A stretch of DNA of 34,760 nt from contig JAGCDD010000079.1 of NCBI GenBank assembly GCA_017651345.1, positions 1-34,760 of the forward strand. The letters run 5' to 3'. The stretch is from Bacteroidales bacterium (GTDB taxonomy: Bacteria > Bacteroidota > Bacteroidia > Bacteroidales > UBA3824). How positions within the stretch are numbered: position 1 is the first letter of the stretch; each line of letters begins with the position of its first letter. The position numbers and the translations under genes were made by a program. Below, piece by piece: positions 15,630 to 34,760 of this stretch. The notes below the pieces were generated by a model, which saw nothing but the letters and a program-made list of their open reading frames with translations, was not told the DNA's origin and made no database searches.

Positions 15630-15668
15630 AGTTGGTCAATTTATTTGTTAAAATCAAAAATTATAACG

Positions 15669-15772: not shown

Positions 15773-15780
15773 TAATTTTG
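15773..15780 (+). promoter_or_regulatory. -7 box for fusA
   Basis: TAATTTTG matches the Bacteroidota -7 consensus and is followed by a run of six C. A TTTG at 15755-15758 is only 14 bases upstream, shorter than the usual 19-21, so the -33 element is uncertain. The leader to the fusA ATG is about 70 bases. Confidence 0.5.
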
Positions 15781-15852
15781 CCCCCCGAAAAAGTGTGGTA
15801 TTGCAACAATACCCAACGAAGAACAAATTAATAAAATTAAACATACAACACA

Positions 15853-17946
15853 ATGTCACTTGAGAAATTAAGAAACTTCGGTATAGCCGCACACATTGAT
15901 GCTGGAAAGACGACCACCTCGGAGCGTATACTTTTCTACACCGGAGTAAACCGTAAAATCGGTGAAGTTCACGATGGCGCTGCCACAATGGACTTTATGA
16001 AACAGGAGCAGGAAAGGGGTATCACTATCCAATCCGCCGCTATCTCCGCACACTGGAAAGGCTACGACCTCAACCTTATCGACACCCCCGGACACGTTGA
16101 CTTCACTATGGAGGTTGAACGTTCGATGCGTGTGGTTGACGGCTTAGTTTCTGTTTTCTGTGCAGTAGGCGGTGTTGAACCTCAGTCTGAAACCGTTTGG
16201 AACCAGGCTGTTAAATATCACGTTCCCCGCGTTGCCTACATCAACAAGATGGACCGTTCGGGTGCCGATTTCGACTCTGTTGTAAAACAGATGGACGAAA
16301 TGCTTGACGCTCACCCTGTTAAGATGGAAGTTCCCTGCGGTAGCGAAGAAAACTTCTACGCTGTTATCGACGTTGTAACAGGTAAATGCTACAAATTCGT
16401 TGACAAAGAATACGAAGAAATTGAACGTCCCGCTGAATACGAACAAGAATATCAAGATTGCCACGACAAACTTCTCGAAAAAGTTGCTGAAGTTGACGAG
16501 GCTTTGATGGACAAATATTTTACAGATCCTTCTACCATCACAGTAGAAGAAATCAAGAAAGCAGTTCGTAAGGCTACTATCAACTTGATTTTCACCCCTG
16601 TATTCTGTGGTTCATCTTACAAAAACAAAGGTATCCACTTTGTTCTCGACGCAGTAGTTGATTATCTTCCTTCTCCGCTCGACCTTCCCGATGTACACGG
16701 CAAAGATCCCGATGATGAATCAAAAGAAATAGTTGTAAAAGCAACTCAAGACGCTCCCGTAGCCGCTCTTGCATTCAAACTCATCAACGACCCCTTCGTA
16801 GGTCAGCAGGTATTCACCCGCGTATTCCAAGGCGTTATCAAACCTGGTATGAGCCTCGAAAACGCCAACAAACGCAAAAAAGAGCGCATCGGCCGTATCT
16901 TCAAAATCAAAGCAAAAGAGCGTATCGAAATTCAAGAGGCTGTTGCAGGCGATATCGTAGCCCTCATCGGTCTTAAAGAAACCAAAACCGGCGACACCCT
17001 CTGCGACGAGGAGCATCCCGTACTTTTGGAATCTATCTCGGTTCCGCCTCCAGTTATCCAGTTGAAGGTAAGCCCCAAAAACAAAAAAGACCAGCAGAAA
17101 ATGGGCGAGGCTCTTCACAAACTCGCAAACGAAGACCCCTCATTCGTGGCTCAATACGACGAAGAAACCAACGAAACCGTTATCGCTGGTATGGGCGAGT
17201 TGCACCTCGAAATTATGGTTGACCGCGTAAAAGAAGAGTTCAAAGTAGACGTAGAAGTTGGCGAGCCCTCAGTTGCTTACCGTGAAACATTCCTCGTTGA
17301 ACAAGATGCTCACTACAAATATGCTAAACAGTCGGGTGGTAAAGGTCAGTATGCTGAAATCCGCATGATTATGAGCCCCAACCCCGGCAAAGGATACGAA
17401 TTTGAAAACACCGTTAAAGGTGGTCACATCCCCGGCGAATTTATTCCTTCGGTTGACAAAGGTATCCAGAAAACTTTGGAAAAAGGCGTTCTCGCCGGAT
17501 TCCCCGTTGTTGACGTTAAAATCAACCTCTACGACGGTAGTTTCCACCCGGTTGACTCTTCAGACTTCGCATTCCAGACTTGTGCGTCGATCTGTTTCAA
17601 AGAGGCATTCATGAAGGCTCACCCCGTATTGCTCGAACCTGTGATGAAACTCGAAGTAATCACTCCCGACGAGTACATGGGCGATATCATCGGCAACCTC
17701 AACAAACGTCGTGGTAGAATCGAACAGCAGGGTCCTCACCCACACCGCAAGGGCTTAACCGAAATCAAAGGTTACGTTCCGCTCGCAGGTATGTTCGGTT
17801 ACGCTAACGATTTGCGCAACATTTCTTCTGGTCGTGCAAGTTTCTCAATGGAGTTTGCACAATACGAGCAACTCAACGCCGCTACTCAGGAAGAAGTTCT
17901 CAAGAAACTTGCTGCAAAACGTGCCGCTGAAGAAGCCGCTAAATAA
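15853..17946 (+). CDS. fusA: Elongation factor G
   Basis: 697 residues. EF-G drives tRNA-mRNA translocation and, with RRF, ribosome recycling. The G domain is intact: AHIDAGKTT (13-21), RGITI (55-59), DTPGH (77-81, with the catalytic His) and NKMD (131-134). Domain IV and V landmarks follow, such as GQYAEIRMI, YKYAKQSGGKG and LNKRRGRIEQQG. Codon use is strongly biased to C-ending codons (AAC, GAC, TAC), which suggests high expression. The gene stands alone, with its own promoter and terminator, and no rpsL/rpsG or tuf beside it. Bacteroidota can carry more than one EF-G. The GITIQSAA and CAVGGVEPQSETVW segments recall both bacterial EF-G and the spd/mitochondrial EFG1 group, so this may be either the housekeeping copy or a paralog. 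Confidence 0.96.
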   Translation: MSLEKLRNFGIAAHIDAGKTTTSERILFYTGVNRKIGEVHDGAATMDFMKQEQERGITIQSAAISAHWKGYDLNLIDTPGHVDFTMEVERSMRVVDGLVSVFCAVGGVEPQSETVWNQAVKYHVPRVAYINKMDRSGADFDSVVKQMDEMLDAHPVKMEVPCGSEENFYAVIDVVTGKCYKFVDKEYEEIERPAEYEQEYQDCHDKLLEKVAEVDEALMDKYFTDPSTITVEEIKKAVRKATINLIFTPVFCGSSYKNKGIHFVLDAVVDYLPSPLDLPDVHGKDPDDESKEIVVKATQDAPVAALAFKLINDPFVGQQVFTRVFQGVIKPGMSLENANKRKKERIGRIFKIKAKERIEIQEAVAGDIVALIGLKETKTGDTLCDEEHPVLLESISVPPPVIQLKVSPKNKKDQQKMGEALHKLANEDPSFVAQYDEETNETVIAGMGELHLEIMVDRVKEEFKVDVEVGEPSVAYRETFLVEQDAHYKYAKQSGGKGQYAEIRMIMSPNPGKGYEFENTVKGGHIPGEFIPSVDKGIQKTLEKGVLAGFPVVDVKINLYDGSFHPVDSSDFAFQTCASICFKEAFMKAHPVLLEPVMKLEVITPDEYMGDIIGNLNKRRGRIEQQGPHPHRKGLTEIKGYVPLAGMFGYANDLRNISSGRASFSMEFAQYEQLNAATQEEVLKKLAAKRAAEEAAK

Positions 17947-17973
17947 TCAAGCACACACTTTTTTCTCATAACT

Positions 17974-18010
17974 AAATCCCGTTGGACCAAAATCCGACGG
18001 GATTTTTTTT
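17974..18010 (+). terminator. Intrinsic terminator of fusA
   Basis: A 13-bp stem (AAATCCCGT at 17974-17982 plus TGGA at 17983-17986, pairing with TCCG at 17993-17996 and ACGGGATTT at 17997-18005, one G-U pair), a six-base loop, and a T run to 18010. It starts 28 bases after the fusA stop. Confidence 0.93.
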
Positions 18011-18297
18011 ATTATATATATAAGGTGTGGGGGGGAAGAGAGCCTAGTTCTTCTCTGTAAAATTAAGTTTACATTATTTTCTAAAAAAAGTTCAATTTTT
18101 TTTTATTCCCTTGCAACTAATTTCGTAATTTTATTGTCTAAAATTTAGGGTGAACTGTATACTAAACCCAACAAAAAATGAGTTTATAACTAATAGGCGG
18201 GAAAATTGTGAACTGTAAACGCCTGATTTTAAGATAGATTAACACGCTGAGTATCAGATAATAACAACCACTGATACAGGCTAAAAGATATTGAACT
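18011..18297 (+). other. Gene-free leader of the giant repeat gene
   Basis: 287 bases with no gene. It contains a (TA)5 tract at 18013-18022, a run of seven G at 18029-18035, a 10-base direct repeat GTGAACTGTA at 18150-18159 and 18208-18217, and a hairpin close to the start codon (18251-18277). I find no TTTG anywhere in it and no match to TAnnTTTG; TAATTTTA at 18126-18133 is the nearest. The promoter of the giant gene is therefore not recognisable by the consensus that serves the other units here. Confidence 0.6.
18251..18277 (+). promoter_or_regulatory. Hairpin just upstream of the giant gene
   Basis: GTATCAG (18251-18257) and CTGATAC (18271-18277) form a perfect 7-bp inverted repeat with a 13-base loop, ending 20 bases before the ATG at 18298. 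There is no T run, so it is not a terminator; it could be an operator or an mRNA structure affecting initiation. Confidence 0.4.
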
Positions 18298-21200
18298 ATG
18301 AATAAAACTGTCATTAAAAAACATACGGCTATGTCAACTGTATTATTCAAGAGATTCACCTCGTTTGTGATAGGGGTGATTTCGATATTGGTATTAAGCG
18401 CAGGAAATGTGAGTGCGCAGAATGTTACTCTTTCTGCTACTCAGACTACTAATGATAAGTGTAGTGGAAAAGCAAACTTATCTATTTCAATTTCTGGAAC
18501 TAATTACAGAATCCGTAATATTAAATATAGTATTAATGGAGGGGCGCAACAAACCACCAATAATACCAATTTCTCGGTATCTGGTATTGCGTTGGGCGGA
18601 GAGAATGTTTCTGTTAAGTACGATATTCAAGAATATAAATTGGGTACAGATGGTAACTATTCTTGGGTTACTACTAAAACGAATCAAACATCTAATTCTG
18701 TTTACTTAGCAAATAACAAAATTCGATTAGGTGGTGGTGGTACAGTTGATATTTGTGGAAGTTCTGTGACGTTAACGGGTACAGCTCTTCCTTGGGGTGC
18801 TCAAGGACAATGGTCAGGAACTGGCATTACTGGAAATCAAACTAATAATGTTATTACTATTAATAATGTACCCGCTGGTTCAGGTAATCAATACACTTGG
18901 AAAGCAACTGCTAATGGTTGTAGCTCTTCAGAAACGTTTACTGTTAATAATCACGTTAACGAAACAGTTGCTTTTACTATGAATAAAGATTTGGCGGTCT
19001 GTGGTACCACAACATCTGCAGGAATAGGAGTAACTGCACCTGGTGCTTCTGTATATTGGGAACCTTCTAATAAGGTAACAAATCCTGATGCGGCCACAAC
19101 TACTGCCATAAACTTAGATCCTGGTGTTAATACTTTTACTGCACATATTTCTAAGGGTCAGGGATGTCCTGAACAAACAGGAACAATAAAAGTATATCGT
19201 TACGATGCTTCTGCAAGTGCAAGTGCAGCTTTTGTATGTGCTGATGATGAAGATATTGAACTTAGAGCTACACAAAATCCCACATTCCCTACTGGAACTA
19301 CCACAGAATGGATTCCTAATGGAAGTGGAACTATTACTACAGGAAAGAATAATAGCCAAGTTGCTACTGCTCATATTTCAGGTAGCGAAGTATTTTTTAC
19401 ATATCATGTGAATATTCCCGCACCCGTTGCTGGTTCAAGTGGTTGTACTCTTGATATTCCTACTGCAAAAATCACAAAGGAGGAAGTAAACGCTGATATA
19501 GAAAAAGAGTATTGTATCGTTCAAGATGATTCTAAAAATCAAGATGGATACAATCTAGTAGCAGCCGAACCAAAATTTCAAGGTGGATATACTGGTTTAT
19601 GGGAACCTGTTAGCGGACAACCTACCACTATTACTAATGCAGACCAACCGGTGGCTAGTTTTAAATATAATGATAATCTCCATCAATCTCACGGCGTTAC
19701 AACTTTTAAATGGACTGCTACTTCTAATAATAACCCACGTTGTAAGGAAACTACAACTGTAAAAATCGTTAAGCTTTATTCTGCATTTGATATATCAACA
19801 GATCTTGTTTGTTCAAAGGAAGATGTTGTACAACTAACCGCAGAAGATCCTGCTCCTGGTACTGGTGTATGGACACCTGCACAATCAATAAGTTTTGCAG
19901 ATCCAAACGCTTATGTTACTGTTGCATCTAATATCGGTGGTACTGGTGGAGGTTCTCAGTCTGAACACGAAATTCAGTGGAAAGTTACATATAAGTCTAA
20001 AAATGGTGGTACGTGTACAGCTACAGCCTCAAAAACAATTGTAAGTTTAAATGTTGAATCTGTTCCCGGTGCAGCCCAAGAGGTTTGTACTAATACAGCT
20101 ACTATGCAAGCTGGTACGTTGCCGTCAACAACGCCAGCAACTACAGGTCAATGGAATTATATAGGACCAAACGTAGCTGGGGCACCCGCCATTGTTATAA
20201 CAAATACAGCAGATCCGAAAACCACTGTAAATAATCTTCATCCCGGAGCTAATGAATTTAGTTGGACAGTAACACGTAAAAATGCAGATGGCAGTAAGGT
20301 TTGTACCGATACTAAATCTGTTATCATTTATAATAGTGAGGTTAGTGATGCAGAAGCTGGAGACCCACAGTCTATCTGCTATGACCACACGACTCTTGGC
20401 GCCACACCTCCCGCCGATGGTGAAGGCTTATGGGATTATGGTAATCGAGGTCCTAATACAGTTATTGTTGATCCTACTAATCCAAATACTGAAGTTACAG
20501 GATTGAAAAGAGGTAGAAACAATTTCAGTTGGACAGTATATAAAGGTGTGCTTTCGCCTAAGAAATGTCATAAAGTAGATTATGTTGATGTATTCTATAT
20601 GCCTATTGACATTGACGCAGGTAATGAGCAGATGATTTGCGATAATCAAACTAATTTTAAGGCAACCGGTAACCCTGGCGCATATATGGATGAGAATCCC
20701 AATATTGAATGGAAAGCATTTTGGGAGCCTATTGCTGGTGCTAATTCTTATGTGATTACACCATCTACTGCTCAAGGTACAGCAGAGCAAGTGCTTCCTG
20801 TGTTGTCTGCCAACGTTGCTGGTATTACCAAAGGAAAACATAGTTTTAGATTGAATCTTCAGATTATAGACAAAACTACCGGTAACGTAATATGTTCAGA
20901 ATATGACGATGTTGATATTTGGAACGACCAAGTTGGTGTTGTAAGTGCTGGTATGAACGACATTACTTGTGGTGATCCGTTCTCCGCTAAAAAAGCTTCA
21001 ACTGGATCTGCCGACTTATATCATTCATGGTATGAGGGTAACTATCGTTATCTGAACGGTACACCTCCTCCAGATGCTAACTATTGGGGTGAATGGACAA
21101 ACCCTGCTGGTGGAGCTACTATTGCCAACCCTAATAGTTATCAGACTTCGGTATCCAATCTTCAACGTTACTCTCAAGAGACTCGTCCTGATTATTGGAC

Positions 21201-24200
21201 CAACAATCCTACTGTAAACGTTTTTACTTGGACACTGCATTATAAAAACCCTGACACTCAGCACGAGTGCTATAGTTCGGCTGATGTTGAGATTATCTGG
21301 CTTGCTCCTTTTGATGCAGATGCTGGTGATAATCAGCTTGTCTGCGGTAAGGATGTAAACCTTAACGCTGAGGACGAAGGCGCAGGTGCAATGTTCAATT
21401 GGTGGACATCATCTACCGCAGCCAGCAACACAAACAACCTGTTTTACCAAAATCCATATTGGGGTGGTAAGGCGGTTTTGGTAGAAAACCATCAAGGTGT
21501 TGATGTTTCATACAATGTCAACGGAGTCAGTGGTCGCCCTGCAGGTACTGAAGCTACTAAAAAAGATGTCTTCGTATATGAAGATAAGGTAGAATTTGAG
21601 GGCGATGGCAAAACTTATGTTATAATATCTACACGTACTGTTTATTATAATCCGGGTAGTCAGTCAGGATATGATCGAAACAACAATGCTTTGGTTAGCG
21701 GTGTAGATATTAAGTATCAGTATTATGATGCCTCTACCTATGTTGATTATGAACATCGTGGTGCTGAGGTTACCCCTCCAGCTGATTCTCAAGCTGCTGC
21801 ATATCAGATTGCCGATGAAATTTATAATATGTCGGTTAATGGACAGCAGACAGCAGCTACTCCTGCAAATCCTTCAATAACTCAATATCGTTGGTATAAA
21901 GCAAACCGTCTCGTAGATCCGTATCATACAACGCAAGGAGGCGGAGAACAGAAAGTAGTTACATGTTTGGTTTATGACGATACCGAAGTTAAGGTATTGG
22001 GCTTAATGTCAGATGTTAACGCCGGTAGTGAGGCTGCTATCTGTGATGATGAGTATCAACTTGCAGCTGTAGGCTGGGAAACAATTAAACCTAACGGTTC
22101 TATATCAGATTACTCTGTAAGCCTTGTAGAGCAGTCTTGGTCGGTTGTTCATGGTCATGGTACTTTTGTAGATGTACACGAACCAAGTTCAGTTGTACAA
22201 AATATGTCGTACGATACTAACATTTACCGTTGGACAGTTATAGCATCTATAAAATCTACCAACTCTAATGGACAAATCATTCAAGGTGATAACTGTATAA
22301 TGAGTGATGACGTATATATTACTAATGCACAACCTGCAGTGCCCGCACTTCCTGCCGACCGCGAAGTTTGTCAACGCGATCACATCAACCTTAAAGGTAA
22401 CTTGCCTGTTCGTGGTGATGGATTTTGGCATGTTAGAGGTGGTACAGGTATAATCACTCACCAATCTTGTAAAGATGCTACTTGCGATGCTTTTGTTGAT
22501 AATCTCTCATGGGGTGAAAACTTGTTTGAATGGCAGGTAGTAAACAAATGGGAATCTAAAAAGAATCCATCGCAGGTATTTATTGAATGTTCTGCCTCTG
22601 TATTCCAACGTATTTATTATCATGGTATGGACGCTGAGGCAAGTCCTGACCAGTTCTTATGTTCTGATGAAGCTGAATTGAATGGTTCGCTTCCTGATGT
22701 TGGAGATATTTCTCCAGTAGAATTAGCTAAATATGGTGCACCACATGGTTGGTGGGTTACTCGAAGCGGTGTTGCAAAGTTTTATAATTATGATAATACC
22801 TTGGCAACACCAAGTGGAATAAACGTTAATGTTTATGCTTCGCATGTAATATTGAAACATACTCCAAGATCTAACTATACTACTGTTTGGTGGCATGTAA
22901 AATGGGGCGGTTGTGAAAACAGCAAAGAGGTTCGTGTTTTCAACAACTTACCGTACAACTCACCTTCAACAGGACCTACTCAAGACGTTTGCGAAGATTA
23001 TGCAAATTTAACTTCGCAAAATGTAATGAGTACTCATAATAATTTTTCTTCTACAACTCCGCCCCCGACAGTAACATCTAAAGCTCCACATTTCCAAGAA
23101 AGTACTTGGGCAGGTAAAAATTCGCCTATGTCATATAATGAATGGACGTCTACTTCAAATAATGTTACATTTAATGATGCTTTGAATGGTACTACAGTGG
23201 CCAATAATCTTAACAAACCGGGTCTTACCGAATTGTATTTAACATTCTATAATAAGAATGTCGATTGGCAAAACGACCCAAATGGTAATGTCAATCCTAT
23301 TGATAATACCAAACCTGTTGAGTATTGCTTTATTGAAGATAAATTACAAATATATAATAATAGTGTTACTACCTATGCAGGTTTGGACCAAACCCTTTGT
23401 GGTTATCCGCAGAAAGATAATTATGCAACATTGGCGGCACAAAATGTTCCTACCAATGCAGAAGGAGAATGGTCTGTTATAGGTGGTACTGGAAGTGAGA
23501 TTACATTTTTCGATAAAAATCTTAATACTACCAAAATTACTGTAGTAAATGGAGCTTCTGGTGATTATACATTAAATTGGAGAGTAAGAAAGAAAAACGG
23601 AAACAACAATACCGAACCGTGGTGCTATGCCAACGATCAGGTAGTTGTAACTATGAATGTTCCCGATACAGCTATCGCTCAAGCTTTTGATGTTAACAAA
23701 GTCCTCAATAGAGGTAATATTCAAGTTTGCGATGATGATGTAGATCTCCATTTTGACCGCGAATATCAACGTGGTGAAGGTGTTTGGACTTCTACAAGTG
23801 ATGGTATTATAAAATATACTCCCAATAATTCGGCAACCGACCTTAATGTTACAAAGTTACCTATCAATAGCACAGTATTTACATTAACTATTGATTATCA
23901 CGGTTGTAAGTCTATTGATACAATTGAAGTATTTAATAATAAAGTAGTTGCTATTGCCGAAACACGTGCAGGTAGAGATCCTCATGTAATAGATATTTGT
24001 GAAGATAGTTATAAGCTTTCGGCAAACAATTATGCATTGAATGATGGTGATAAGTTCAAGACTGTTCAAAAATGGTCTTGCTCTCATGCTTCTGTACAGT
24101 TTAAAGACAATAGTAGTCCTAATGCAAGTGTAACCGGTTTGGTTCGTAGTCAAAACAAGTCTGTTAGCAACCACTTAGTTTGGACAGTAACCAAAGGCAA

Positions 24201-27200
24201 ATGCTCAACTTATGACTATATTGATGTTTATAACAATAAATTTGAAATTGAAGATAAGCCTAACTTTATAGTTTGTGAAAATACAGCAACTTTGGAAGGT
24301 GAAGCTCCCGGTACTCAAAACAGTAGCTATTATGGTGTTTGGAAAGTAGAGCGTGGCGGTAGCCAATTTACTTCAAATGCAAGTAGCAATACCGTTACTG
24401 TAGGAAAGTTGCAGAAAAAAGAGAATGAATTTAGTTGGACTGTATTCCGCAATGGATGTAGTGCAGAAGATAGAATTATAGTATTCAACAACGAGGTTGA
24501 AGCTAAAGCAGGTGATGATATTAATACTTGCGACGAAACTGTTAAGTTACAAGGTGTTAAACCTGAATGGGGTATCGGTACTTGGACAGTACATTCTGCT
24601 TCGGGTAGCCCTACATTTGGTGAAACTTCTCTTGCAGGTGGTCTATCTGAAATGACCGTGTTTAACGGTTATGTTTTTGGATTAAAACAAGGTGAAACCG
24701 TTCTTAAATGGACAGTTAAGAGCTATTTGAATGACCCTGTTCCAAGTTCTATTACTAATCCTAATGGCACTGTAATTCACGAAGGTAAAATTTACGAATA
24801 CGCCAAAGCTTGTATTGATGAAGATTTTGTTTCAATTCACAACGATATGCCCGATGATCCTGAGGTAATTGAACCTAATGTTGAGATCTGTCAAGAGCAA
24901 ACTGCTGCAGGTCTTGATGTATTGCTCAAAGCAAAAGAGGTTCGTGCCGCAAGTGGTGGTACAAGTTGGGGCGAAGGTCACTGGGAATATTATAGCGGAC
25001 CTACAGGTGGTGTAATAGTTACACCATCGGATAATGAATCAAAAATTGATAACTTACCCTACGGCGAATCGGTTTATGCTTGGGTAGTAGAAAAAACTGG
25101 TTCAAATGGTTTAGTATGTAGAAAAGCCGATTATGTTCACGTATTCAACAATTACGTTGAGGCTGAACTTAATAACGCTTACGATGAGGTTTGTGAACCT
25201 AAAACAAATCTTTATGCAAAAGATCCTGCTGATAGATTTCCCGGTGCAACTGGAGTTTGGTCTTACCAGAATTTCTCTAATATTCCTGCAGCAGATTGTC
25301 CAGTAATTGCACAAGCTACTGATCCTTCTACACAAGTAACCTCTAAATTGCCTTCAGGTCGTTCAAACTTTGTATGGACAGTAAAGAAAGGTTCAGGCAA
25401 ATGTCACGCAGAAGTTATTTATTCGGTTGATAATAATATGGTTGAGGCTGAGATTGCTTCTCCTGCACTCAATAATAACGAACTGAATATTCACAATTCT
25501 TACGAAATTTGTAAACCCGATGAGTTGAGACTTATTGCGAAGGCAATACCAAATGCCGCCACAGGTACTTGGACATTAGATCAGAAACCTTCTGGTTTTG
25601 ATATGTCTTCTCTAAATATTGCTTCACCTAATGGTCTTGTTACCGATGTGAAAGGTCTTTACATGGGTAACTCTACATACGTATTCAAATGGTCGGTACA
25701 AATTGGTACTGGTAAATGTAACAGAGAATCCGACATTACTATCACAAACAACGGCTTTACTGTAGATGCCGACCAGAGCATCGATACCAAGTCGAAATAT
25801 ATCTGTGGTCCTCAATATACTCTCACTACTGAATCTATATCTTGTACAACGGGACCTTGGACTGTGGAAAGCGGCTCAGGTTATTTTATGGAGAATGGTG
25901 TTAGAAGTTCTACCACACACAATGCTACAGCCACAGTTTATGGTCTTACAGAAGGCAAGGCTTCTCAACTAAGATGGTATGTTCAATCCACCAAGTGTGA
26001 TGCCGATGACTATGTACTTTTATTTAACGATGAAATTTCTTTAACTGCAAGTCAGGCTGATCCCAACAAGAAGAGCTGTGATGGTAGCTACGAACTCTCT
26101 GGTACAAGTCTCTCTTCTTATACCGGAGCTAAGGGCGAATGGAAAACCAATGCCACAACAGGTCATTTCACCGGTGATAAATCTAACTCGCAGATTACTT
26201 ATGAAGGTATAATGCCTAATACTGATGTTACTTTGTATTGGACTGTTGTAAGTCCCAATGCAAATTGCCACACTGAGGCTTCGGTTACTGTTCATAACTA
26301 CGAGTTTAACCTCGAAGCTGATCAGAACCGCGTTACTAATTGTGAAGACGACTTTGTACTCGAAGGTCATTATCCCGCAGCTTCTAACGCCGAAACTTAC
26401 AACGGTGTTTGGTCGCTTGATATTGGTTCGGGTCTTGCAGCTCCTGTAGCGGCAAGTTCGGTTAAAGCTACCGGACTAAGCAATAAGATTAATAACGTAT
26501 TCTTCTGGACTGTTACAGGTAGCAAATCTAACTGTAAGAAAGTTCAAACATGGAGCGTTGTTAACCCCAATCCTTCTATACCTTCAATCGTAACAAATAA
26601 TGGGACAGAAACATGTACCGGCGAGATAGACCTTGAAGCCAACGCACCTGAGGTAGGAGAGGGCCACTGGACTTCGGATGTTGCTTGCAGCATTACCGAA
26701 AAGGCTGGCTCTACATATCTTGCCGAGGTAAAAGATATGGCTCTCGACGCTACCAAGTTTACATGGACACTTACTAATACCGTAGGTTCTACTACATGTA
26801 CTCGCGAAACTGACATCACTGTTAACAACAACAAAGTAGAGGCTATAATCACTACCAAGTCAACCAATAAGACTTGCAATGGTGAAATCAAAATGGAGGC
26901 TTTTGCTACTCCTGGTGCAACAACCGCTGTTTGGACCAAGCCTTCGTCAAGTCCTGCAGTTTTCGATCCTGCTGATGGTTCGTCTACAAAGGTTACTGTT
27001 ACTAATCTTGGATACGGTAAAACCACATTTACTTGGACTGTTGCTAAGGGCTCGGGAGCTCCTGGCTGTAAACAGACCGACCAAATTGATATTTATAACA
27101 ACGAGGTTGCTGCTAACATAGCAAAAGATACAGCTCACACTTGTACCGAAGATATTCAACTTTGGGCAGATAATATTGCTGAGTTTGGTTCGGGTGCTGA

Positions 27201-30200
27201 TGCTGCCAAAGGCGAGTGGCGACTTGTAACAGCTCCTCCTTCGATGGGCGCGGCTTCTACAGGCGTTTATTTCGATAATAGCAACAGCTATCAAGCTAAA
27301 GCATCTGGACTTACACACACTGGCGCATATACATTTGAATGGACAGTTAGCAAGGGTGACTGCTCTAAGAGCGACCGTATAATTGTTTACCAATCAAAAG
27401 TTTACGCAGGCGCAGATCAAACAATTACTACCTGCGACGAAGAAGAAGCTCTCCACGGAGCATCGCTCTCTTCTGAAACTACAGGTTTGTGGACGTTTAT
27501 TACACCTAAAGGCTCTCACAATATTCAGTCGGCTACCAGTGCAGAGGCTCTGCTTACTGGAATCACCGACCGCGACGAGGTAACTCTCAATTGGACAGTT
27601 ACTCACAATATTGCTAATTGTAAAGATGTTGCCGAGTTTACTATCAAGAATGTAAAAGTTACAGCAAACATTCAAAAACCCGACGTTCAGCTTTGTGGCA
27701 CCACCGCTACTATCAACGCCGACTATGTTGACCCTGCTGTGGGCACTGGTACATGGACTAAGAAAAATACTGCTGCTTCGGCTAACTTCCTTACCGATGC
27801 CACCAAGTCAGACCTCCAAGTTACTGGATTTGCCGATGGTGCTAAGGTAGAATTTGTTTGGACTGTGGTTTCGGCATCTGCTCCTTACTGCGTTACCGAA
27901 GCTACCGCAATGGTTACCAACAATGTATATAATAATGTTAATGCTGGTGTTGGTGGAAATGTTTGTGGCAACGCTACAACACTTATGGCAGGACAGTTGC
28001 CGACAGGATTTAGTGGCACTTGGGCTGTTAATACTAATGCTCATATAACAATTCCTGCATCTTCGCAAACAACAGTTACCAACCTCGATAAAGGCGAGAA
28101 CAAGTTTACTTGGACAATTTCGCGTTATCCATACGGACACAAAAATTATTGTCCTAACGAAGCTGTTATCAGTAAGTTCAATATCGAACCCACTGCAGCT
28201 CAGATTACCACACCCAACAATACCGAAATCTGCCAGTCTACCTATACTCTTCAAGCAGTTCCTGTTGATGATGACAATGTAGAGTACGGTGTTTGGAGCA
28301 AGATTTCTGGCGAAGGTATTTTCACCACTAACGACTCTTCTAACGAGGTTTCAGTAGCTAACCTCAGCAGTAGCGAACGTTTTAAATGGACTACATACGC
28401 CAAGGCTGACGTAAGCTGCAAACATGAGGCAGAAGTAACTATCAAGAATAATTCTGTTAAAGCTCCTGCTGCAGGTGATTACACTGAAGAAATCTGTATA
28501 ACTGGAAACCAGACCTATACAATCACCACAGAAGATCCCGCTCTCCAAGGTGCAACTGGTGTTTGGTACGACAAAGACCATAATGTTGTAGGAAATGCAT
28601 CTACACTTTCAGTCTCTGCCGCAATGGCTCCTGTAAACGTGGGTGGAACATTTACTTGGACACTTTCTAAGGGAACTACAAATATCTGCCACGCTTATCA
28701 GAATGTTACTTTGGTTAACAATGGCGTTGAAGCTGCTCAGCCTCAGATTACTTCTGGAACAGCTCCTGGCAAAACCGACGTGGTTTGCTCGCCCACAATT
28801 GAGCTTACTGCCAACGATGTTAAGAATATATATGGTGCTAATACCAATGGCTGGTGGGAACTCAAAACCTTCCCCACGGCTTATCTCTCTCGCAATCAGA
28901 TTGTTATTGAATCACCCAACAACTACGTAACTAAGGTTTCGGGTATGACATCTCCTGGAGCATACGAGTTTGTATGGCACGTTAGCAAAGGTTCGTCTTG
29001 TGTCAGTGACGCTACTTTACTTGTTACAAGTCAGTACTTTACCGTAAATGCAGGACATACCAATGATAATGAACACAATGTAACAGTCTGTGGCGACAAT
29101 ACTACTCTTGCAGCTTCGGCTACAATAGGCAACAACGAAATTTCGCAAGGTACTTGGACAATATCTAATCCTTCTGGCGCTGCTATTTCTGGAACTGTTG
29201 CAGGCACTATCAATAGCAACCCCATAGTTTCTAATATAACTACTACAGGTTCGCGCCTCACATGGACGGTAACAAGTACACAGGGATGTACAGCTACCGA
29301 CTTTATTGATATTTCTAATGCTCAGATTTCGCCTGATATTAAGGTTGTTACTACTCTTCCTATCTGTAATGGCGAAGTTGAGTTGCAAGGTTCTCCAATG
29401 CCTTCTGGCAATGTTAGAGGTTATTGGACAGAGGATTCTCCTGATGTTTCTAAGAGCGGTAAATTTACCGACGACTTGAAAAACGAACTTGATGCTGCTC
29501 ACGCTACTACCAACGTTATTTATTATCGTGGTATCAAGGAGGGTAAAAAAGTTACTCTCCGTTGGACTATCAAAAACACTATGACCGATGGCACTATCTG
29601 CGAAAACTCCAAAACAGTGGATATTACCAACAACGGATTTATAGTTGATGCTGGTCCCGATGTGGTTACCGATTGCGAAGATAGCTACACTATGAACGCC
29701 AAACTTCCTGTAGTTCAAGGCAATGAAACCTACACAGGAACTTGGTCTCAAGGTAATGTAGGTAAGGGCGATATTGTTTCTATCAACGATTCTAAAACAG
29801 TTGTTAACAACCTCCGCAACTTTGAAGAAAATCAATTTGTTTGGACAGTGGTTCAAACACTCAACGGACAGCCCGGTTGTACAAATTCGGCTATGGTAAC
29901 CATAGTTAACCCCTCGGCTACTAAACCCGTTATTGATTTGCCCGATAACAATGAAACTTATACATGTAGTGGCATTGTTAACCTTCGTGCTACTGCTCCT
30001 ACCACTACCATCGGTGAAACTGGTAAATGGACTGTTAAACCTGGATATGGTCAAGGTACATTTGATAATACAGGTGCTGCATCGGTTAAAGTTTCTAATA
30101 TGAAACCCGATGCTAATACATACGTTTGGACAATTACTCGTACAAGCAATGGTAAAACTTGTACTGCTGAAGTTGAGCGCACAATCAACAATTACCATGT

Positions 30201-33200
30201 TGACGCTCAGATTACTGAAACCGAAATTGCAGTATGTGGCGGTATAGCTAACCTTGCTGGTCAAAAAGCTTCTACATTCTCTAATACAGAAGGCGTTTGG
30301 ACAGCTAATCAAACTGTACAACTTGTTGAAAATGGAACTTCTACTACTAAGGTGGCAGGTAATCCTATTTCAAATAGCGCTTCTATTACCGTTGTAGTTC
30401 CTTCGGGCGAAACCAACTTTGTTTGGACTCTTACCAAGAATGTTACAAGTGGTGTAATTGGAAGCTGTTCTGCTGCTGATAATGTAGTGGTTAAGAACAA
30501 TAATGTTGTTGCTCAGATTAACAACACCTTGCTTTGGACATGTAATACAAGCGAAACCGTTCAAGCAGAGTCGCTTCTCGGTACTACTGCAACTGGTAGA
30601 TGGACGTGTGTTCAAGCTCACGGAAGCACAGACGCTGCTGATTTGGCTGCTGTGGTAATTTCTGATCCTGACAACAACCGCACCGAGGTTAGCAACATGA
30701 CCACTGCCGGTGCTTACGTATTCCGTTGGACTGTTAACCACGGATCTTGTCCTGCTACATCTGCCGAAGTTACAATCAACCAAGGTACATTTAAAGTTGA
30801 TGCCTACGTTACCGATGGTGTCAATGGTAATAATGTAATGAACATCTGTGGCGATGAGGCATATCTTGCAGCTTCTGAACCCGGAGTTCTCGACCCAGCA
30901 AGAGGTGATTTTGCACGATGGGAAGTTGCAGATCCTTCTTCGGTTATTTTTGCTAATGACAATAGCGATGGTGCAAATGCAAATGTCAATAAAGTAACTC
31001 TTACTGGCAAAACAGCTTCGCTCAAATGGCATGTAAAACGTAATGGTTGCGAAGATAATAGCACTGTTATCATCACTAACCAAATGCCTGACGCATACGC
31101 ATCCGACTATGTAACTTGCGATGGCAAAGGTCAATTGCAAGCTACTCAAGATCTTGTTAACACAACCTATTGGGAAAAGGTTGACCAAACAAGCCATATC
31201 AATATCAAAGATATCAACGATTACGCTTCGTTGTTCGACGGTATGGACGACAACTCGCAAGTAAAACTCAATTGGGTTGTTGAAAGTGCTAATATGCCCG
31301 GATGTAAACATCCTGTTACCATAACAGTTTACAACAACGGTTTTGATAAATCTCGTATTAATGCTGGTTCTGATCAGAATATCTGCGTTGATTATGCTCA
31401 ACTTGGAGCCGTAACACCTGCTGGTTATGAAGGTGTTTGGTCTACCGATGCTACTGGTGTTCTCTTCTACGATGACTCTAACAAGGTAACTTTAAACGCT
31501 TCTACAGCTTCAGCCTTTGTTACCAACCTCCAAGACGGCGACAATGTTCTTACTTGGTCTCTCTACAAAACTCAAAATGGTAAAGAGTGTAAATCTCAAA
31601 AATCTATCACTGTTACCAATAATTTCCCGGGTACACCTCAGGTTACTACTTTGAGTCAAGAACTTTGCAACCCGAGCATCGAACTTACTGCTACTCCTGC
31701 TACAAGCCCCGCAGCTGGATTCTGGTCTAGCGATAATAGCAATGTAGTTTACTCTAATAGTACAAATGCAGTTTGCACAGTAAGCAATTTGAGCCGTGGC
31801 GACAACAAATTCTATTGGAATCTCCACAAAAACGGCAATTGCGTTCAAACATCAGCACCTATTGTAATTACCAACAATGCAGTTAAGGTTGATCCTAACC
31901 TTGACATCCGCGTTTGTAAAGATACAACAATAGTAGTTGCCGATCCTTCGCTTTATGGTGCAAGTGGAACATGGTCGGTAGGTGCTGGAGCTAGCTTCAC
32001 TACCCCAACAGCTGCATCTCCCTTTATAATTAATGTATCACCTTCTCGCGATGGTTCTACTTATAAGTGGACAGTTACTAAGGGAAATTGCTCTAAAACT
32101 CAAGACATAACGATTACAACCGACGAGGTTACCGCCGAGATTCTTTCTCCTTCTACTTCACCCTACGATCTCTGTGGTAATGAGATGATTTTGCAAGCTT
32201 TGGATTTTACTACTCAAGGCTCGGCTGATATCAAAGGTTATTGGACTCTTGAAAACTGGCCTACCAACAAAATCAACCGTTCGGATATCAACATCCTTGA
32301 CCATACAGCCATTTCTACCACAATCAAGAATATGGACGCCGAAGGTCAGTACGTGATTTCTTGGACAGTGAAGAAAAATAACTGTAAAGCTGTTGACACT
32401 AAGATAATCAATGTTCAGCAGGTTAAGATTTTTGCCGAACTCAATCCTAATACTGTCAACAACCGCCGTTCTGTATGCGACGAGGATTACACACTTAACC
32501 CAACCATTCCTTCTTCTTACAATTCTGCTAAGTGGGAGGTTGTTTCTGGTACAGGTTACTTCGGTCCTGAAACCGCTCCTTCTAAGTCTACCAACTTGGC
32601 AAACAGCGTTATTCACGGACTTACAAGCGGTGACACTCAGTTGAAATGGACTGTTACCCGCGGTACTTGCGATGTATCTGCCGAACTTACACTTACCAAC
32701 GACAAGATACCTGCTACCGTTTCGGCAGTACCTAACTACATTTGTACGGAGGATGATATTATCCAACTCACTGGTGCTACTGGCTCTTATTACAAATGGG
32801 AGCTCATCGACGGTGATGGTACTAACGGTAAACTTATCAATGAAAACAACAATTATGTAGAACTTACAGGCGTTCAGATGGGCAAGACAGCTCACGTACG
32901 CTACACGGTAATCAACGAACTTGCCGACAAGTCTACTTGCACCGATGTTAAGGATTACTACTTCACCAACGAAGGTTTTGTGGCTCATGCAGGCAACGAC
33001 GATATTACCGAATGTTCTTCGGAATATCAGTTTAGCGCATCTCTGCCCGATCCTATCAACGGCGAGGCTTACACAGGTGTTTGGGAGCCTAACCATGGTA
33101 CAACGGCAATTATTGCCGCTACCGACAAAACCAACGCTACTGCAACTGTATACGACTTAAGCAATTCTTCGCCCAACACATTTACTTGGACTGTTACTTC

Positions 33201-34760
33201 GCCCAACGGACACTGTGTTGACCATGCAGAAGTTACCATCTACAACAATCAGCCTACTAATGTGAAGATTTCATCGCACACAGATGGTCAGGTTGTTTGC
33301 GAACCTTATATTGGTAATCTCCGTGCTTTGGATTATTCTCCATCTTCTGCTACCGCAGAATGGACAGTTTCGTCTTTCGGTGCAACAATTACAAATGCCA
33401 CAACAACTCACGCATCTGTTGACAAACTCGACGCAGGAGATAACTATATCACATGGACTGTTACCAACCCCAACGTTGGCAAGAACAAAACTGGAATGCC
33501 CGTTACTTGTTCACTCTCTGATCGGATTAGAATTGTAAACAACTACTACGAGGCTAAGATTATTACTCCTGAGCAGGTTGTCTGTGATGGTTCTAACCAG
33601 ATAGAGCTTCAGGCAGAAGACCCCGACCAGTACGCTCACGCTAAGGGTGAATGGACGGCCGATAAGACGGGAGTTACAATCAAAGATCCCACCAAGTTTA
33701 CAACACTTGTAACCGACTTGCCTAACAACGAAGATATTACATTTACTTGGACAGTAGTTCCTTCTACTCTTGGTACTATTTGTGGTGATTCCAAGAAAGC
33801 TACCGTTGTTATCCACAACCAAGCTCTTGACAAGACCAACTATCCGGTATATATTACACCGAGTGTTACCAATACAGATCCTCTCTACCCGAATGTGATT
33901 TGCCAAGACAACCTCTCGCTTACACCTTCGCCCGTTCAGAGCAACTGGATTGGCGAATGGGCTCAAACTAAGATTCCTGACGGTGTTGCGGCTCCCAACT
34001 CGGCTAAGAACGGAAATGTGCTCCAACTTTCTAATATAGTTCCGAGCGTAGGTGATAAATATCAGTATACATGGACAGTTTCTAACAAGAACAACAAGTC
34101 TTGTTACACATCTACCACTTACACATTCTACAACAATGCGTTTACAACCTTCGCTTATTACAATAATGGTGCTTCCAGCGATGTAATGGACATCTGTGGT
34201 ACAACTGGTACTCTCAGTGCACAACCTGGTAGTGCTACTGCTTCGAGCGAATGGAGAATGAGTGATGGCTCGTCCATTAATACTTCTTCTATCGTTATTG
34301 ATAATATTTATTCTGCAGGTTCTTCGTTTGAAATTACTGGTACCGTCGATCCCAGTCTTCGTTGGACTGTTAAAGATAAAGGTTGTGAGGCATCTGCTGA
34401 TTTGACAATTCGCAATGTTAAACCTTCAGTTTCTGACTTTGCCGATATTATAGTTTGTGGAAGCACGGCTATGGCTACTGGTTCTAAACCTCTTGCAACA
34501 GAATGGGGCGTTTGGGAGTATAGCGGCTCTACAACTCTTACTATCAGCAGTCCTACGAATTATTCAACCGAAATTAAAAATATCGAAGATAATACTTCTA
34601 ACCAGATTACATGGACTATCCATACTAAGAGAGTTGCAGACTGCTTTACTTCAAAGACTCTCAACATCAATAACGTTCGCGTTTCTGCTCAACCGCGTAC
34701 CGACAATGCTGTTACATGTGGCACCGAAGGCGAAATTTACGCTAACTTGCCCACAGGTTA
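18298..34760 (+). CDS. Giant secreted Cys/Trp-repeat protein (PKD/Ig-like units), 3' end beyond window
   Basis: I read the frame codon by codon from the ATG at 18298 to the window end and found no stop, giving at least 5,487 residues. An in-frame stop at 18259 bounds the start; a second ATG at 18331 is an alternative. The N-terminus is a Sec signal peptide (VIGVISILVLSAG core, likely cut at VSA-Q, residue 40). A first domain of about 100 residues is followed by about 54 complete repeats of about 98 residues and a partial one. Typical unit: a Cys after a short strand (VCGxxxxLxA), GxW about 15-20 residues on, an FxWTV strand near the middle or end, then GxC and VxIxNNxV leading into the next unit. 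The product is a cell-surface or secreted fibre-like protein; type IX secretion and an adhesin or gliding-type role are inference, since the C-terminal sorting domain lies outside. No catalytic domain was seen. Confidence 0.93.
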   Translation, partial: MNKTVIKKHTAMSTVLFKRFTSFVIGVISILVLSAGNVSAQNVTLSATQTTNDKCSGKANLSISISGTNYRIRNIKYSINGGAQQTTNNTNFSVSGIALGGENVSVKYDIQEYKLGTDGNYSWVTTKTNQTSNSVYLANNKIRLGGGGTVDICGSSVTLTGTALPWGAQGQWSGTGITGNQTNNVITINNVPAGSGNQYTWKATANGCSSSETFTVNNHVNETVAFTMNKDLAVCGTTTSAGIGVTAPGASVYWEPSNKVTNPDAATTTAINLDPGVNTFTAHISKGQGCPEQTGTIKVYRYDASASASAAFVCADDEDIELRATQNPTFPTGTTTEWIPNGSGTITTGKNNSQVATAHISGSEVFFTYHVNIPAPVAGSSGCTLDIPTAKITKEEVNADIEKEYCIVQDDSKNQDGYNLVAAEPKFQGGYTGLWEPVSGQPTTITNADQPVASFKYNDNLHQSHGVTTFKWTATSNNNPRCKETTTVKIVKLYSAFDISTDLVCSKEDVVQLTAEDPAPGTGVWTPAQSISFADPNAYVTVASNIGGTGGGSQSEHEIQWKVTYKSKNGGTCTATASKTIVSLNVESVPGAAQEVCTNTATMQAGTLPSTTPATTGQWNYIGPNVAGAPAIVITNTADPKTTVNNLHPGANEFSWTVTRKNADGSKVCTDTKSVIIYNSEVSDAEAGDPQSICYDHTTLGATPPADGEGLWDYGNRGPNTVIVDPTNPNTEVTGLKRGRNNFSWTVYKGVLSPKKCHKVDYVDVFYMPIDIDAGNEQMICDNQTNFKATGNPGAYMDENPNIEWKAFWEPIAGANSYVITPSTAQGTAEQVLPVLSANVAGITKGKHSFRLNLQIIDKTTGNVICSEYDDVDIWNDQVGVVSAGMNDITCGDPFSAKKASTGSADLYHSWYEGNYRYLNGTPPPDANYWGEWTNPAGGATIANPNSYQTSVSNLQRYSQETRPDYWTNNPTVNVFTWTLHYKNPDTQHECYSSADVEIIWLAPFDADAGDNQLVCGKDVNLNAEDEGAGAMFNWWTSSTAASNTNNLFYQNPYWGGKAVLVENHQGVDVSYNVNGVSGRPAGTEATKKDVFVYEDKVEFEGDGKTYVIISTRTVYYNPGSQSGYDRNNNALVSGVDIKYQYYDASTYVDYEHRGAEVTPPADSQAAAYQIADEIYNMSVNGQQTAATPANPSITQYRWYKANRLVDPYHTTQGGGEQKVVTCLVYDDTEVKVLGLMSDVNAGSEAAICDDEYQLAAVGWETIKPNGSISDYSVSLVEQSWSVVHGHGTFVDVHEPSSVVQNMSYDTNIYRWTVIASIKSTNSNGQIIQGDNCIMSDDVYITNAQPAVPALPADREVCQRDHINLKGNLPVRGDGFWHVRGGTGIITHQSCKDATCDAFVDNLSWGENLFEWQVVNKWESKKNPSQVFIECSASVFQRIYYHGMDAEASPDQFLCSDEAELNGSLPDVGDISPVELAKYGAPHGWWVTRSGVAKFYNYDNTLATPSGINVNVYASHVILKHTPRSNYTTVWWHVKWGGCENSKEVRVFNNLPYNSPSTGPTQDVCEDYANLTSQNVMSTHNNFSSTTPPPTVTSKAPHFQESTWAGKNSPMSYNEWTSTSNNVTFNDALNGTTVANNLNKPGLTELYLTFYNKNVDWQNDPNGNVNPIDNTKPVEYCFIEDKLQIYNNSVTTYAGLDQTLCGYPQKDNYATLAAQNVPTNAEGEWSVIGGTGSEITFFDKNLNTTKITVVNGASGDYTLNWRVRKKNGNNNTEPWCYANDQVVVTMNVPDTAIAQAFDVNKVLNRGNIQVCDDDVDLHFDREYQRGEGVWTSTSDGIIKYTPNNSATDLNVTKLPINSTVFTLTIDYHGCKSIDTIEVFNNKVVAIAETRAGRDPHVIDICEDSYKLSANNYALNDGDKFKTVQKWSCSHASVQFKDNSSPNASVTGLVRSQNKSVSNHLVWTVTKGKCSTYDYIDVYNNKFEIEDKPNFIVCENTATLEGEAPGTQNSSYYGVWKVERGGSQFTSNASSNTVTVGKLQKKENEFSWTVFRNGCSAEDRIIVFNNEVEAKAGDDINTCDETVKLQGVKPEWGIGTWTVHSASGSPTFGETSLAGGLSEMTVFNGYVFGLKQGETVLKWTVKSYLNDPVPSSITNPNGTVIHEGKIYEYAKACIDEDFVSIHNDMPDDPEVIEPNVEICQEQTAAGLDVLLKAKEVRAASGGTSWGEGHWEYYSGPTGGVIVTPSDNESKIDNLPYGESVYAWVVEKTGSNGLVCRKADYVHVFNNYVEAELNNAYDEVCEPKTNLYAKDPADRFPGATGVWSYQNFSNIPAADCPVIAQATDPSTQVTSKLPSGRSNFVWTVKKGSGKCHAEVIYSVDNNMVEAEIASPALNNNELNIHNSYEICKPDELRLIAKAIPNAATGTWTLDQKPSGFDMSSLNIASPNGLVTDVKGLYMGNSTYVFKWSVQIGTGKCNRESDITITNNGFTVDADQSIDTKSKYICGPQYTLTTESISCTTGPWTVESGSGYFMENGVRSSTTHNATATVYGLTEGKASQLRWYVQSTKCDADDYVLLFNDEISLTASQADPNKKSCDGSYELSGTSLSSYTGAKGEWKTNATTGHFTGDKSNSQITYEGIMPNTDVTLYWTVVSPNANCHTEASVTVHNYEFNLEADQNRVTNCEDDFVLEGHYPAASNAETYNGVWSLDIGSGLAAPVAASSVKATGLSNKINNVFFWTVTGSKSNCKKVQTWSVVNPNPSIPSIVTNNGTETCTGEIDLEANAPEVGEGHWTSDVACSITEKAGSTYLAEVKDMALDATKFTWTLTNTVGSTTCTRETDITVNNNKVEAIITTKSTNKTCNGEIKMEAFATPGATTAVWTKPSSSPAVFDPADGSSTKVTVTNLGYGKTTFTWTVAKGSGAPGCKQTDQIDIYNNEVAANIAKDTAHTCTEDIQLWADNIAEFGSGADAAKGEWRLVTAPPSMGAASTGVYFDNSNSYQAKASGLTHTGAYTFEWTVSKGDCSKSDRIIVYQSKVYAGADQTITTCDEEEALHGASLSSETTGLWTFITPKGSHNIQSATSAEALLTGITDRDEVTLNWTVTHNIANCKDVAEFTIKNVKVTANIQKPDVQLCGTTATINADYVDPAVGTGTWTKKNTAASANFLTDATKSDLQVTGFADGAKVEFVWTVVSASAPYCVTEATAMVTNNVYNNVNAGVGGNVCGNATTLMAGQLPTGFSGTWAVNTNAHITIPASSQTTVTNLDKGENKFTWTISRYPYGHKNYCPNEAVISKFNIEPTAAQITTPNNTEICQSTYTLQAVPVDDDNVEYGVWSKISGEGIFTTNDSSNEVSVANLSSSERFKWTTYAKADVSCKHEAEVTIKNNSVKAPAAGDYTEEICITGNQTYTITTEDPALQGATGVWYDKDHNVVGNASTLSVSAAMAPVNVGGTFTWTLSKGTTNICHAYQNVTLVNNGVEAAQPQITSGTAPGKTDVVCSPTIELTANDVKNIYGANTNGWWELKTFPTAYLSRNQIVIESPNNYVTKVSGMTSPGAYEFVWHVSKGSSCVSDATLLVTSQYFTVNAGHTNDNEHNVTVCGDNTTLAASATIGNNEISQGTWTISNPSGAAISGTVAGTINSNPIVSNITTTGSRLTWTVTSTQGCTATDFIDISNAQISPDIKVVTTLPICNGEVELQGSPMPSGNVRGYWTEDSPDVSKSGKFTDDLKNELDAAHATTNVIYYRGIKEGKKVTLRWTIKNTMTDGTICENSKTVDITNNGFIVDAGPDVVTDCEDSYTMNAKLPVVQGNETYTGTWSQGNVGKGDIVSINDSKTVVNNLRNFEENQFVWTVVQTLNGQPGCTNSAMVTIVNPSATKPVIDLPDNNETYTCSGIVNLRATAPTTTIGETGKWTVKPGYGQGTFDNTGAASVKVSNMKPDANTYVWTITRTSNGKTCTAEVERTINNYHVDAQITETEIAVCGGIANLAGQKASTFSNTEGVWTANQTVQLVENGTSTTKVAGNPISNSASITVVVPSGETNFVWTLTKNVTSGVIGSCSAADNVVVKNNNVVAQINNTLLWTCNTSETVQAESLLGTTATGRWTCVQAHGSTDAADLAAVVISDPDNNRTEVSNMTTAGAYVFRWTVNHGSCPATSAEVTINQGTFKVDAYVTDGVNGNNVMNICGDEAYLAASEPGVLDPARGDFARWEVADPSSVIFANDNSDGANANVNKVTLTGKTASLKWHVKRNGCEDNSTVIITNQMPDAYASDYVTCDGKGQLQATQDLVNTTYWEKVDQTSHINIKDINDYASLFDGMDDNSQVKLNWVVESANMPGCKHPVTITVYNNGFDKSRINAGSDQNICVDYAQLGAVTPAGYEGVWSTDATGVLFYDDSNKVTLNASTASAFVTNLQDGDNVLTWSLYKTQNGKECKSQKSITVTNNFPGTPQVTTLSQELCNPSIELTATPATSPAAGFWSSDNSNVVYSNSTNAVCTVSNLSRGDNKFYWNLHKNGNCVQTSAPIVITNNAVKVDPNLDIRVCKDTTIVVADPSLYGASGTWSVGAGASFTTPTAASPFIINVSPSRDGSTYKWTVTKGNCSKTQDITITTDEVTAEILSPSTSPYDLCGNEMILQALDFTTQGSADIKGYWTLENWPTNKINRSDINILDHTAISTTIKNMDAEGQYVISWTVKKNNCKAVDTKIINVQQVKIFAELNPNTVNNRRSVCDEDYTLNPTIPSSYNSAKWEVVSGTGYFGPETAPSKSTNLANSVIHGLTSGDTQLKWTVTRGTCDVSAELTLTNDKIPATVSAVPNYICTEDDIIQLTGATGSYYKWELIDGDGTNGKLINENNNYVELTGVQMGKTAHVRYTVINELADKSTCTDVKDYYFTNEGFVAHAGNDDITECSSEYQFSASLPDPINGEAYTGVWEPNHGTTAIIAATDKTNATATVYDLSNSSPNTFTWTVTSPNGHCVDHAEVTIYNNQPTNVKISSHTDGQVVCEPYIGNLRALDYSPSSATAEWTVSSFGATITNATTTHASVDKLDAGDNYITWTVTNPNVGKNKTGMPVTCSLSDRIRIVNNYYEAKIITPEQVVCDGSNQIELQAEDPDQYAHAKGEWTADKTGVTIKDPTKFTTLVTDLPNNEDITFTWTVVPSTLGTICGDSKKATVVIHNQALDKTNYPVYITPSVTNTDPLYPNVICQDNLSLTPSPVQSNWIGEWAQTKIPDGVAAPNSAKNGNVLQLSNIVPSVGDKYQYTWTVSNKNNKSCYTSTTYTFYNNAFTTFAYYNNGASSDVMDICGTTGTLSAQPGSATASSEWRMSDGSSINTSSIVIDNIYSAGSSFEITGTVDPSLRWTVKDKGCEASADLTIRNVKPSVSDFADIIVCGSTAMATGSKPLATEWGVWEYSGSTTLTISSPTNYSTEIKNIEDNTSNQITWTIHTKRVADCFTSKTLNINNVRVSAQPRTDNAVTCGTEGEIYANLPTG
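18754..34760 (+). repeat. Array of about 55 protein-level repeats, about 98 residues each
   Basis: The first conserved Cys of successive units falls at codons starting 18754, 19000, 19237, 19513, 19810, 20086, 20380, 20638, 20968, 21343, 22042, 22369, 22663, 22990, 23398, 23728, 23998, 24277, 24532, 24889, 25192, 25510, 25804, 26077, 26341, 26614, 26875, 27142, 27433, 27694, 27964, 28231, 28495, 28789, 29092, 29365, 29674, 29965, 30235, 30541, 30847, 31120, 31384, 31669, 31915, 32173, 32476, 32743, 33013, 33298, 33583, 33901, 34195, 34456 and 34717. Mean period is 296 bases; the shortest is 237 and the longest 699 (the tenth unit). A second Cys lies roughly 50-95 residues after each first one. 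The units are well diverged in DNA sequence, with no long identical copies noticed. They resemble PKD-like or Ig-like repeats of Bacteroidota surface proteins. Confidence 0.88.

Follow-up and report, generated by a model that had tools for sequence, protein, structure and literature searches.

The window analyzed here is the whole of a 34,760-nucleotide contig from a Bacteroidales bacterium (JAGCDD010000079.1; G000:C44:1-34760 in our labeling of genomes and contigs), and it carries the beginning of a giant gene for what is probably an exported surface protein. From an ATG at position 18298, an open reading frame (ORF) of 5,487 codons runs on the plus strand to position 34758, where its 3′ end is open at the contig edge. 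A reading based on the letters alone (hereafter, the sequence-only reading) had held that this frame is unbroken over at least 5,487 codons, that the minus strand beneath it is broken into ORFs of no more than 434 codons, and that it represents one real gene. All three statements stand. The frame contains no internal stop, compared with 150 expected from its own position-specific composition and 339 from plain composition, so a frame left open by chance is ruled out. The other five frames of the region contain 93 to 608 stops, and the longest minus-strand ORF is 434 amino acids (aa; 29017–30321). A positional counterpart in a close relative of the same genus (G003) is colinear with the window frame (residues 1–5487 with residues 2–5529) and is complete, stop to stop, at 8,993 codons, with a C-terminal domain. 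Between two further relatives (G007 and G009), nonsynonymous divergence (dN, 0.05–0.06) is well below synonymous divergence (dS, 0.27–0.31), and dN is lower than dS in all blocks listed.

The predicted protein begins with a putative Sec signal peptide recognized by eye (residues 1–41, 18298–18420, plus strand), which has a long N-region and ends in SAQ; the start of the protein is near-identical in the window, G003, and G006. Most of what follows (18742–34689, plus strand) was identified by profile searches as an array of ∼90-residue PKD/immunoglobulin (Ig)-like modules, usually with Cys near both ends. A genome-wide search finds 49 modules and a local hidden Markov model (HMM), built from 44 regular-length modules, finds 53 (domain E ≤ 0.01). 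The periodic Cys/Trp motifs noticed earlier are real, given that the frame contains 118 Cys and 130 Trp, and in an alignment of 38 of the 44 regular-length modules (six were omitted) every module has two Cys and one Trp at the same positions, and at least 90% have a second Trp as well. Cys spacings had been used to delimit the modules, so that the invariance of Cys, though not that of Trp, is in part built in. Gaps in the local HMM matches define a module-free stretch at residues 1045–1240 (21430–22017, plus strand), a candidate inserted domain, and G003 has a gap at a similar place (1043–1232). Within a second such stretch (residues 1553–1693, 22954–23376, plus strand) there is only a match scoring below zero bits.

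A module structure predicted with a pLDDT of 91.8 is a PKD/Ig-like β-sandwich, and its best solved structural matches are GhpA of Aureispira and K319L PKD domains. GhpA (a name we take from PDB titles) is also the best solved relative by profile. The sequence-only reading had suggested PKD-like or Ig-like modules; at the level of fold this holds with confidence, but the window's own modules remain under the Pfam cut-offs. For K319L-like PKD (PF22352, cut-off 27 bits) they reach 13 bits, whereas the G003 counterpart (51.2) and a protein from another member of the order, G052 (225.8), are both over. With single sequences, phmmer returned no PDB match, and a PHROGs search gave one weak match only.

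The likeness to GhpA raises the possibility that the protein is a grappling-hook capture fiber used in predation (ixotrophy). Hooks of that type are heptamers of a protein secreted by the type IX secretion system (T9SS) and attach to prey flagella, according to the accessible portion of PMC11205867, and GhpA is ranked first by VIA-align and, for three modules, by Foldseek. For a single module, however, VIA-align places a human PKD domain within 1 Z unit of GhpA, and Foldseek ranks 2yhg first. The best GhpA matches among the alignments listed (residues ∼4759–5192) fall in a module type that 119 of the 393 genomes sampled from the order contain (E ≤ 1e-8, the window's own genome included), and a profile of the relatives' C-termini found no match in deposited GhpA at E ≤ 1. 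We therefore regard a hook of the GhpA kind as distinctly unlikely.

Module matches occur in 33 of the 59 genomes searched (the window's own and 58 others), including 10 of 17 relatives within the genus, and the frames can be far longer than the one seen here. In G017, a complete frame of 17,185 codons with the C-terminal domain spans 51.6 kb (G017:C87:16031-67588); this one gene occupies >1% of a 4.1-Mb genome. The G004 frame has at least 19,284 codons, with its 5′ end off the contig, and that of G001 at least 9,117, with its 3′ end off the contig. The longest versions are thus more than three times the length of the window part, and the earlier "at least 5,487" codons, although correct for this frame, underestimates the family, whose longer frames run from 8,993 codons to 19,284 or more. 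Outside the genus, the longest frame among the matches listed has 9,211 codons. G052 has frames of 7,914 and 8,359 codons, which may be one gene, as 91 bases at one contig end recur identically at another. Cultured carriers, drawn from the best 80 of 297 named loci in a C-terminal profile search, include Natronoflexus pectinivorans, Saccharicrinis aurantiacus, and Plebeiobacterium marinum, with 19–20 modules each and frames cut at the flank.

The stop codon that might have been reached by extending the sequence rightward was not found, as the window is the entire contig. All 49 matches to the module profile in the window genome (4.64 Mb in 483 contigs, 90.4% complete) are on this contig and none is on another. 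The G003 C-terminus has no counterpart in that genome (the best match, 31% identical, is to a 1,714-codon frame on C71), and the last 200 bases of the window match, besides themselves, only short and weakly similar sequences there. The 3′ end of the gene appears to be absent from the assembly. If the remainder is colinear with G003, the window frame would be about the first 61% of a gene of ∼9,000 codons.

Given repeats on this scale, it is reasonable to ask whether modules were falsely joined into a single frame during assembly. The fragmentation of the genome and its contamination (6.1%) would fit such an error, as would the several contigs of the family that end inside or beside repeats and an apparent frame break in G007. 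Nevertheless, we consider it highly improbable: the modules are just 16–34% identical to a reference module, unlike collapsed repeats, the window and G003 are colinear across 5,487 residues, and the whole frame of G017 sits within a 141-kb contig. A break in the frame, which would speak against a single gene, is seen in neither of the complete frames (G003 and G017), but the G007 gene is in two overlapping pieces.

How such a protein would leave the cell is suggested by the C-terminus that the relatives have in common. In G003 it scores over the cut-off for PKD_4 and 24.9 bits for CHU_C, under that model's 27. All seven C-termini tested (six from the genus and one from an order-mate) are type-B-like, with matches to the T9SS sorting domain TIGR04131 at E-values of 4.7e-6 to 1.5e-8 and 26.6–34.6 bits. 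The translocon SprA is present in the window genome (TIGR04189, 1,991 bits, G000:C331), as are three PorP/SprF matches over cut-off (TIGR03519), on contigs other than the window, and eight further TIGR04131 matches, four of them over cut-off. Type IX secretion, proposed from the sequence, is accordingly supported by the TIGR04131/CHU_C-like ends, SprA, and PorP/SprF, although the domain scores fall below the curated threshold of 35. The sorting domain to be looked for at the C-terminus is likewise significant in the seven relatives, yet always under that threshold and, for the window's own gene, unseen. A different kind of anchor was found in none of the relatives examined. Because type-B cargo binds PorP/SprF (accessible text of PMC11205867), a PorP/SprF-type anchor is suggested.

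The same components bring to mind SprB, and the protein could be a gliding adhesin of that kind, bound by SprF and moved on a GldJ/GldK track so as to propel the cell. SprB shares the export class, being a type-B T9SS substrate of ∼200 nm that is carried by SprF (as given in the accessible part of PMC12635249). The window genome has PorP/SprF proteins, as noted, as well as a GldJ-like match (317.7 bits, model positions 126–550) near a contig start. That match is, however, under the cut-off of 458.2 bits; it starts at contig base 20, in a 393-codon frame that is possibly cut. The SprB repeat family, which we take to be PF13573, is found neither in the window frame (Pfam, E ≤ 1) nor in two scanned stretches of G003 (E ≤ 0.1), the gene that follows the giant in G003 is TypA rather than SprF, and seven of the 17 same-genus relatives have no module match. 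We consider gliding an unlikely role.

Judged from the alignments, the giant gene is hypervariable and mosaic. Between the window and G003, the proteins are 46% identical over 5,272 aligned residues and dS is saturated (2.2), whereas nine of the 11 neighboring genes with a match in G003 have dS of 0.065–0.322. The two diverged neighbors encode a 210-aa barrel-like protein (dS 0.73) and a 351-aa protein (dS 1.94), and two further neighbors have no match in G003. It should be noted that these 11 window neighbors, and not the genome at large, are the only background for dS, because 20 further G000 stretches gave no match over 500 bases to G003:C35 and a 20-kb G003 query gave many scattered G000 matches at 65–93%. 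The 351-aa protein (14574–15629, minus strand), next to the gene for elongation factor G (EF-G), has no Pfam match at E ≤ 0.001, is 59% identical to its G003 counterpart and, by this measure, is another fast-changing gene.

The mosaic structure is evident in two pairs of relatives. G003 and G006 differ in srfC, the gene preceding the giant in both (see below), by a dS of 0.15. Across their giant proteins, identity starts at 77% (first 60 aligned residues), falls to 37–49% for most of the ∼2,800 columns that follow, and then rises unevenly to 58–87%; in the C-terminal part it goes from 39–58% to 78–88% in the last ∼600 columns. For G007:C19 and G009:C22, for which the comparison covers N-terminal parts only, identity is 29–45% up to column ∼1,000 and ∼90% beyond column ∼1,250. 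In this latter region dS is 0.27–0.31 (two full alignment windows), compared with 1.58 for the adjacent srfC. The interior of the gene thus looks younger than its neighbor, which strongly indicates exchange. For outer-membrane proteins, mosaic evolution is already known (PMC12175518, accessible text).

A structural coat or decoy that binds no particular ligand, forming a dense brush or an S-layer-like shield from phages, predators, or host immunity, could also explain the long arrays of modules, the extreme length, and an allelic divergence of the sort expected of escape. A specialized tip is instead suggested by the N-terminal stretch without modules, which the window and G003 have at similar positions, and by the greater divergence of the distal part in one pair (G007 and G009), and the cost of so long a product argues against a passive role (an argument only). 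We regard a coat as possible though doubtful.

Our preferred interpretation, to which we assign a probability of roughly 0.7, is that the window frame is the N-terminal part of a T9SS-exported giant surface filament protein, most likely a long-range adhesin or capture fiber. We infer both its surface-fiber nature and its adhesive or capture function (directed at cells, particles, or prey). In this scheme, the Sec signal would bring the protein to the periplasm and SprA/T9SS would export it, with a PorP/SprF-type barrel retaining the C-terminus at the outer membrane. Disulfides between the paired Cys of each module would make the single-chain fiber stiffer. A module of this type adds about 4 nm, so the fiber might be roughly 350 nm long for the 87 modules of G003 and 650–750 nm for the 165–188 of G017 and G004. 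The N-terminal part would be the distal tip. The contrast between the first ∼1,000 columns and those beyond ∼1,250 in G007 and G009 is what a ligand-contacting or antigen-exposed tip exchanged by recombination would be expected to show, and the exposed part would diversify under recognition pressure. By sequence, SprB-like gliding, GhpA-like capture, and a passive coat are inseparable from this interpretation.

Several observations weigh against it. Seven of the 17 relatives in the genus have no module match; for five of these (G005, G008, G010, G013, and G016) assembly loss is possible, because their srf contigs end inside or beside srf genes. The G007 gene is split into overlapping frames of 10,618 and 1,735 codons (G007:C2, about 65371–65762), an apparent frameshift in the gene or the assembly; the start of this gene is on another contig. 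The 351-aa neighbor of the giant gene is also highly diverged from G003, and so divergence alone cannot single out the latter. The window's modules are below every Pfam cut-off, all seven TIGR04131 scores are under 35, and the gene next to the G003 giant encodes TypA and not PorP/SprF. Finally, the window gene's own C-terminus was not found in its assembly, a genome with 6.1% contamination.

The genomic context ties the giant gene to an srf-type operon. In the window this operon is on the minus strand and encodes an SrfC-type protein (1686–4526, 946 aa; PF10139 Virul_Fac, E 6e-161), a 337-aa protein with no family over cut-off (4562–5575), SrfB (5603–8596, 997 aa; PF07520, E 1.9e-232), and a 211-aa protein (8625–9260) whose best Pfam match, a zinc finger, scores 21.6 bits, below the cut-off of 23.2. 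In all seven same-genus contigs that reach far enough beyond srfC, the window excepted (G001, G003, G006, G007, G009, G012, and G017), the giant frame directly follows srfC on the same strand (the PF10139 assignment was made on the window copy). SrfB is further upstream in six of the seven, those whose contigs extend to it (only its end in G012). Other contigs stop about 1,100 (G004), 690 (G002), and 220 (G010) bases past srfC or before its end (G005, G008, G011, G013, and G016), and SrfB was not found in the genomes of G014 and G015.

The window itself departs from this arrangement: a flavorubredoxin-like gene follows srfC, and the gene preceding the giant is that for EF-G (15853–17946, plus strand; TIGR00484). 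Positions 1676–9425 and 10902–17981 match G003 in one orientation and 1–1562 and 18112–18482 in the opposite one. On this comparison, the block at 1676–17981 is inverted relative to G003:C35, and a 16-kb inversion would separate the srf-type operon from the giant gene. Its ends (1562–1676 and 17981–18112) lie beside hairpins that look terminator-like by eye. As an alternative to a real inversion, the contig may be chimeric.

Beyond the genus, a joint srf–giant unit was considered and rejected, as none of the four order-mate srf contigs with ≥5 kb after srfC has a module frame there. Coupling by co-occurrence outside the genus is too weak as well, with modules in four of four SrfB-positive and 18 of 37 SrfB-negative genomes. 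Among the papers listed in our literature search, whose coverage left out most subscription papers, none linked SrfB/SrfC to type IX cargo. Within the genus, one could speculate that an srf-linked capture fiber, hypervariable in sequence and in length (from 9,000 codons to 19,000 or more), is maintained, that species swap its mosaic alleles so that the outward tip changes target, and that SrfB/SrfC-family proteins serve its assembly or deployment. Taken as a whole, this scenario is improbable.

Some other features of the locus deserve mention. Upstream of the giant gene is a conserved leader (18111–18169, plus strand) with a promoter-like pair, TTGCAAC ... TAATTTTA (18111–18133), and then a hairpin (18148–18169); it is possibly a promoter plus a 5′-terminal mRNA stem-loop. 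Boxes TGCAAC and TAATTTTA-like are kept in seven genomes of the genus. The hairpin is of the GGGTGG...CCACCC type, and its stem bases vary with pairing mostly retained; the exceptions are one mismatch in G001 and different predicted pairings in G003, G006, and G009. Between the srf-type operon and clpP are genes for an AbiEii-family nucleotidyltransferase (PF08843) and a 205-aa partner (9434–10833, minus strand), with no match in G003:C35:1-100000 and 99–100% identity in G013:C205 and G016:C219. A tandem pair of different ClpP-family proteases (10963–12273, minus strand) lies beside a trigger-factor-like gene (12273–13664).

What is new here is the srf–giant linkage in all seven informative contigs of the genus and the hypervariability and mosaicism of the giant gene. 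T9SS cargo would gain a fiber family whose longest frames have 17,185 and ≥19,284 codons and which curated models narrowly miss (both the window modules and the seven C-terminal domains are under their cut-offs). A saturated, mosaic giant among mostly near-identical neighbors offers a test case for diversification of recognition fibers, and also for export of so large a single polypeptide, and the adjacency of the srf-type operon gives SrfB/SrfC proteins a concrete, testable context.

Among known systems, GhpA of Aureispira sp. CCB-QB1 (PDB 9flp, 9fly, and others; 5,898 residues deposited) has homologous PKD/Ig-like modules of ∼80–90 residues. Its export by the T9SS is reported in the accessible text of PMC11205867, the route that we propose for the giant protein. 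The proteins of this genus exceed GhpA in length, by a factor of 1.5 in G003 and of more than 3 in G004, and GhpA gives no match to the profile of the relatives' C-termini. SprB of Flavobacterium johnsoniae, of about 6,500 aa, is a giant, repetitive type-B T9SS surface cargo, as the protein described here probably is; the latter differs in having no SprB repeat match, a different module family, and no adjacent SprF in G003. The window copies score under the cut-off of the K319L-like PKD family (PF22352), known from human KIAA0319L/AAVR. The SrfABC operon (PF07520, PF10139) has been studied in Salmonella and Xenorhabdus (PMC6950479, accessible text); SrfB and SrfC families are over cut-off beside the giant gene, with the difference that in this genus the operon is followed by a giant of the T9SS type. 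In size the protein is no bacterial record, because an ORF of 39,678 aa is known from the Omnitrophota (V. archaeovorus LiM; PMC10066038) and giant ORFs of up to 85,800 aa have been reported (PMC12057145), both according to the accessible portions of these papers. The Omnitrophota giants belong to another phylum and are longer, and the LiM protein has predicted transmembrane helices, but they share with the Bacteroidales protein the extreme length of a single gene and a presumed role at the cell surface.
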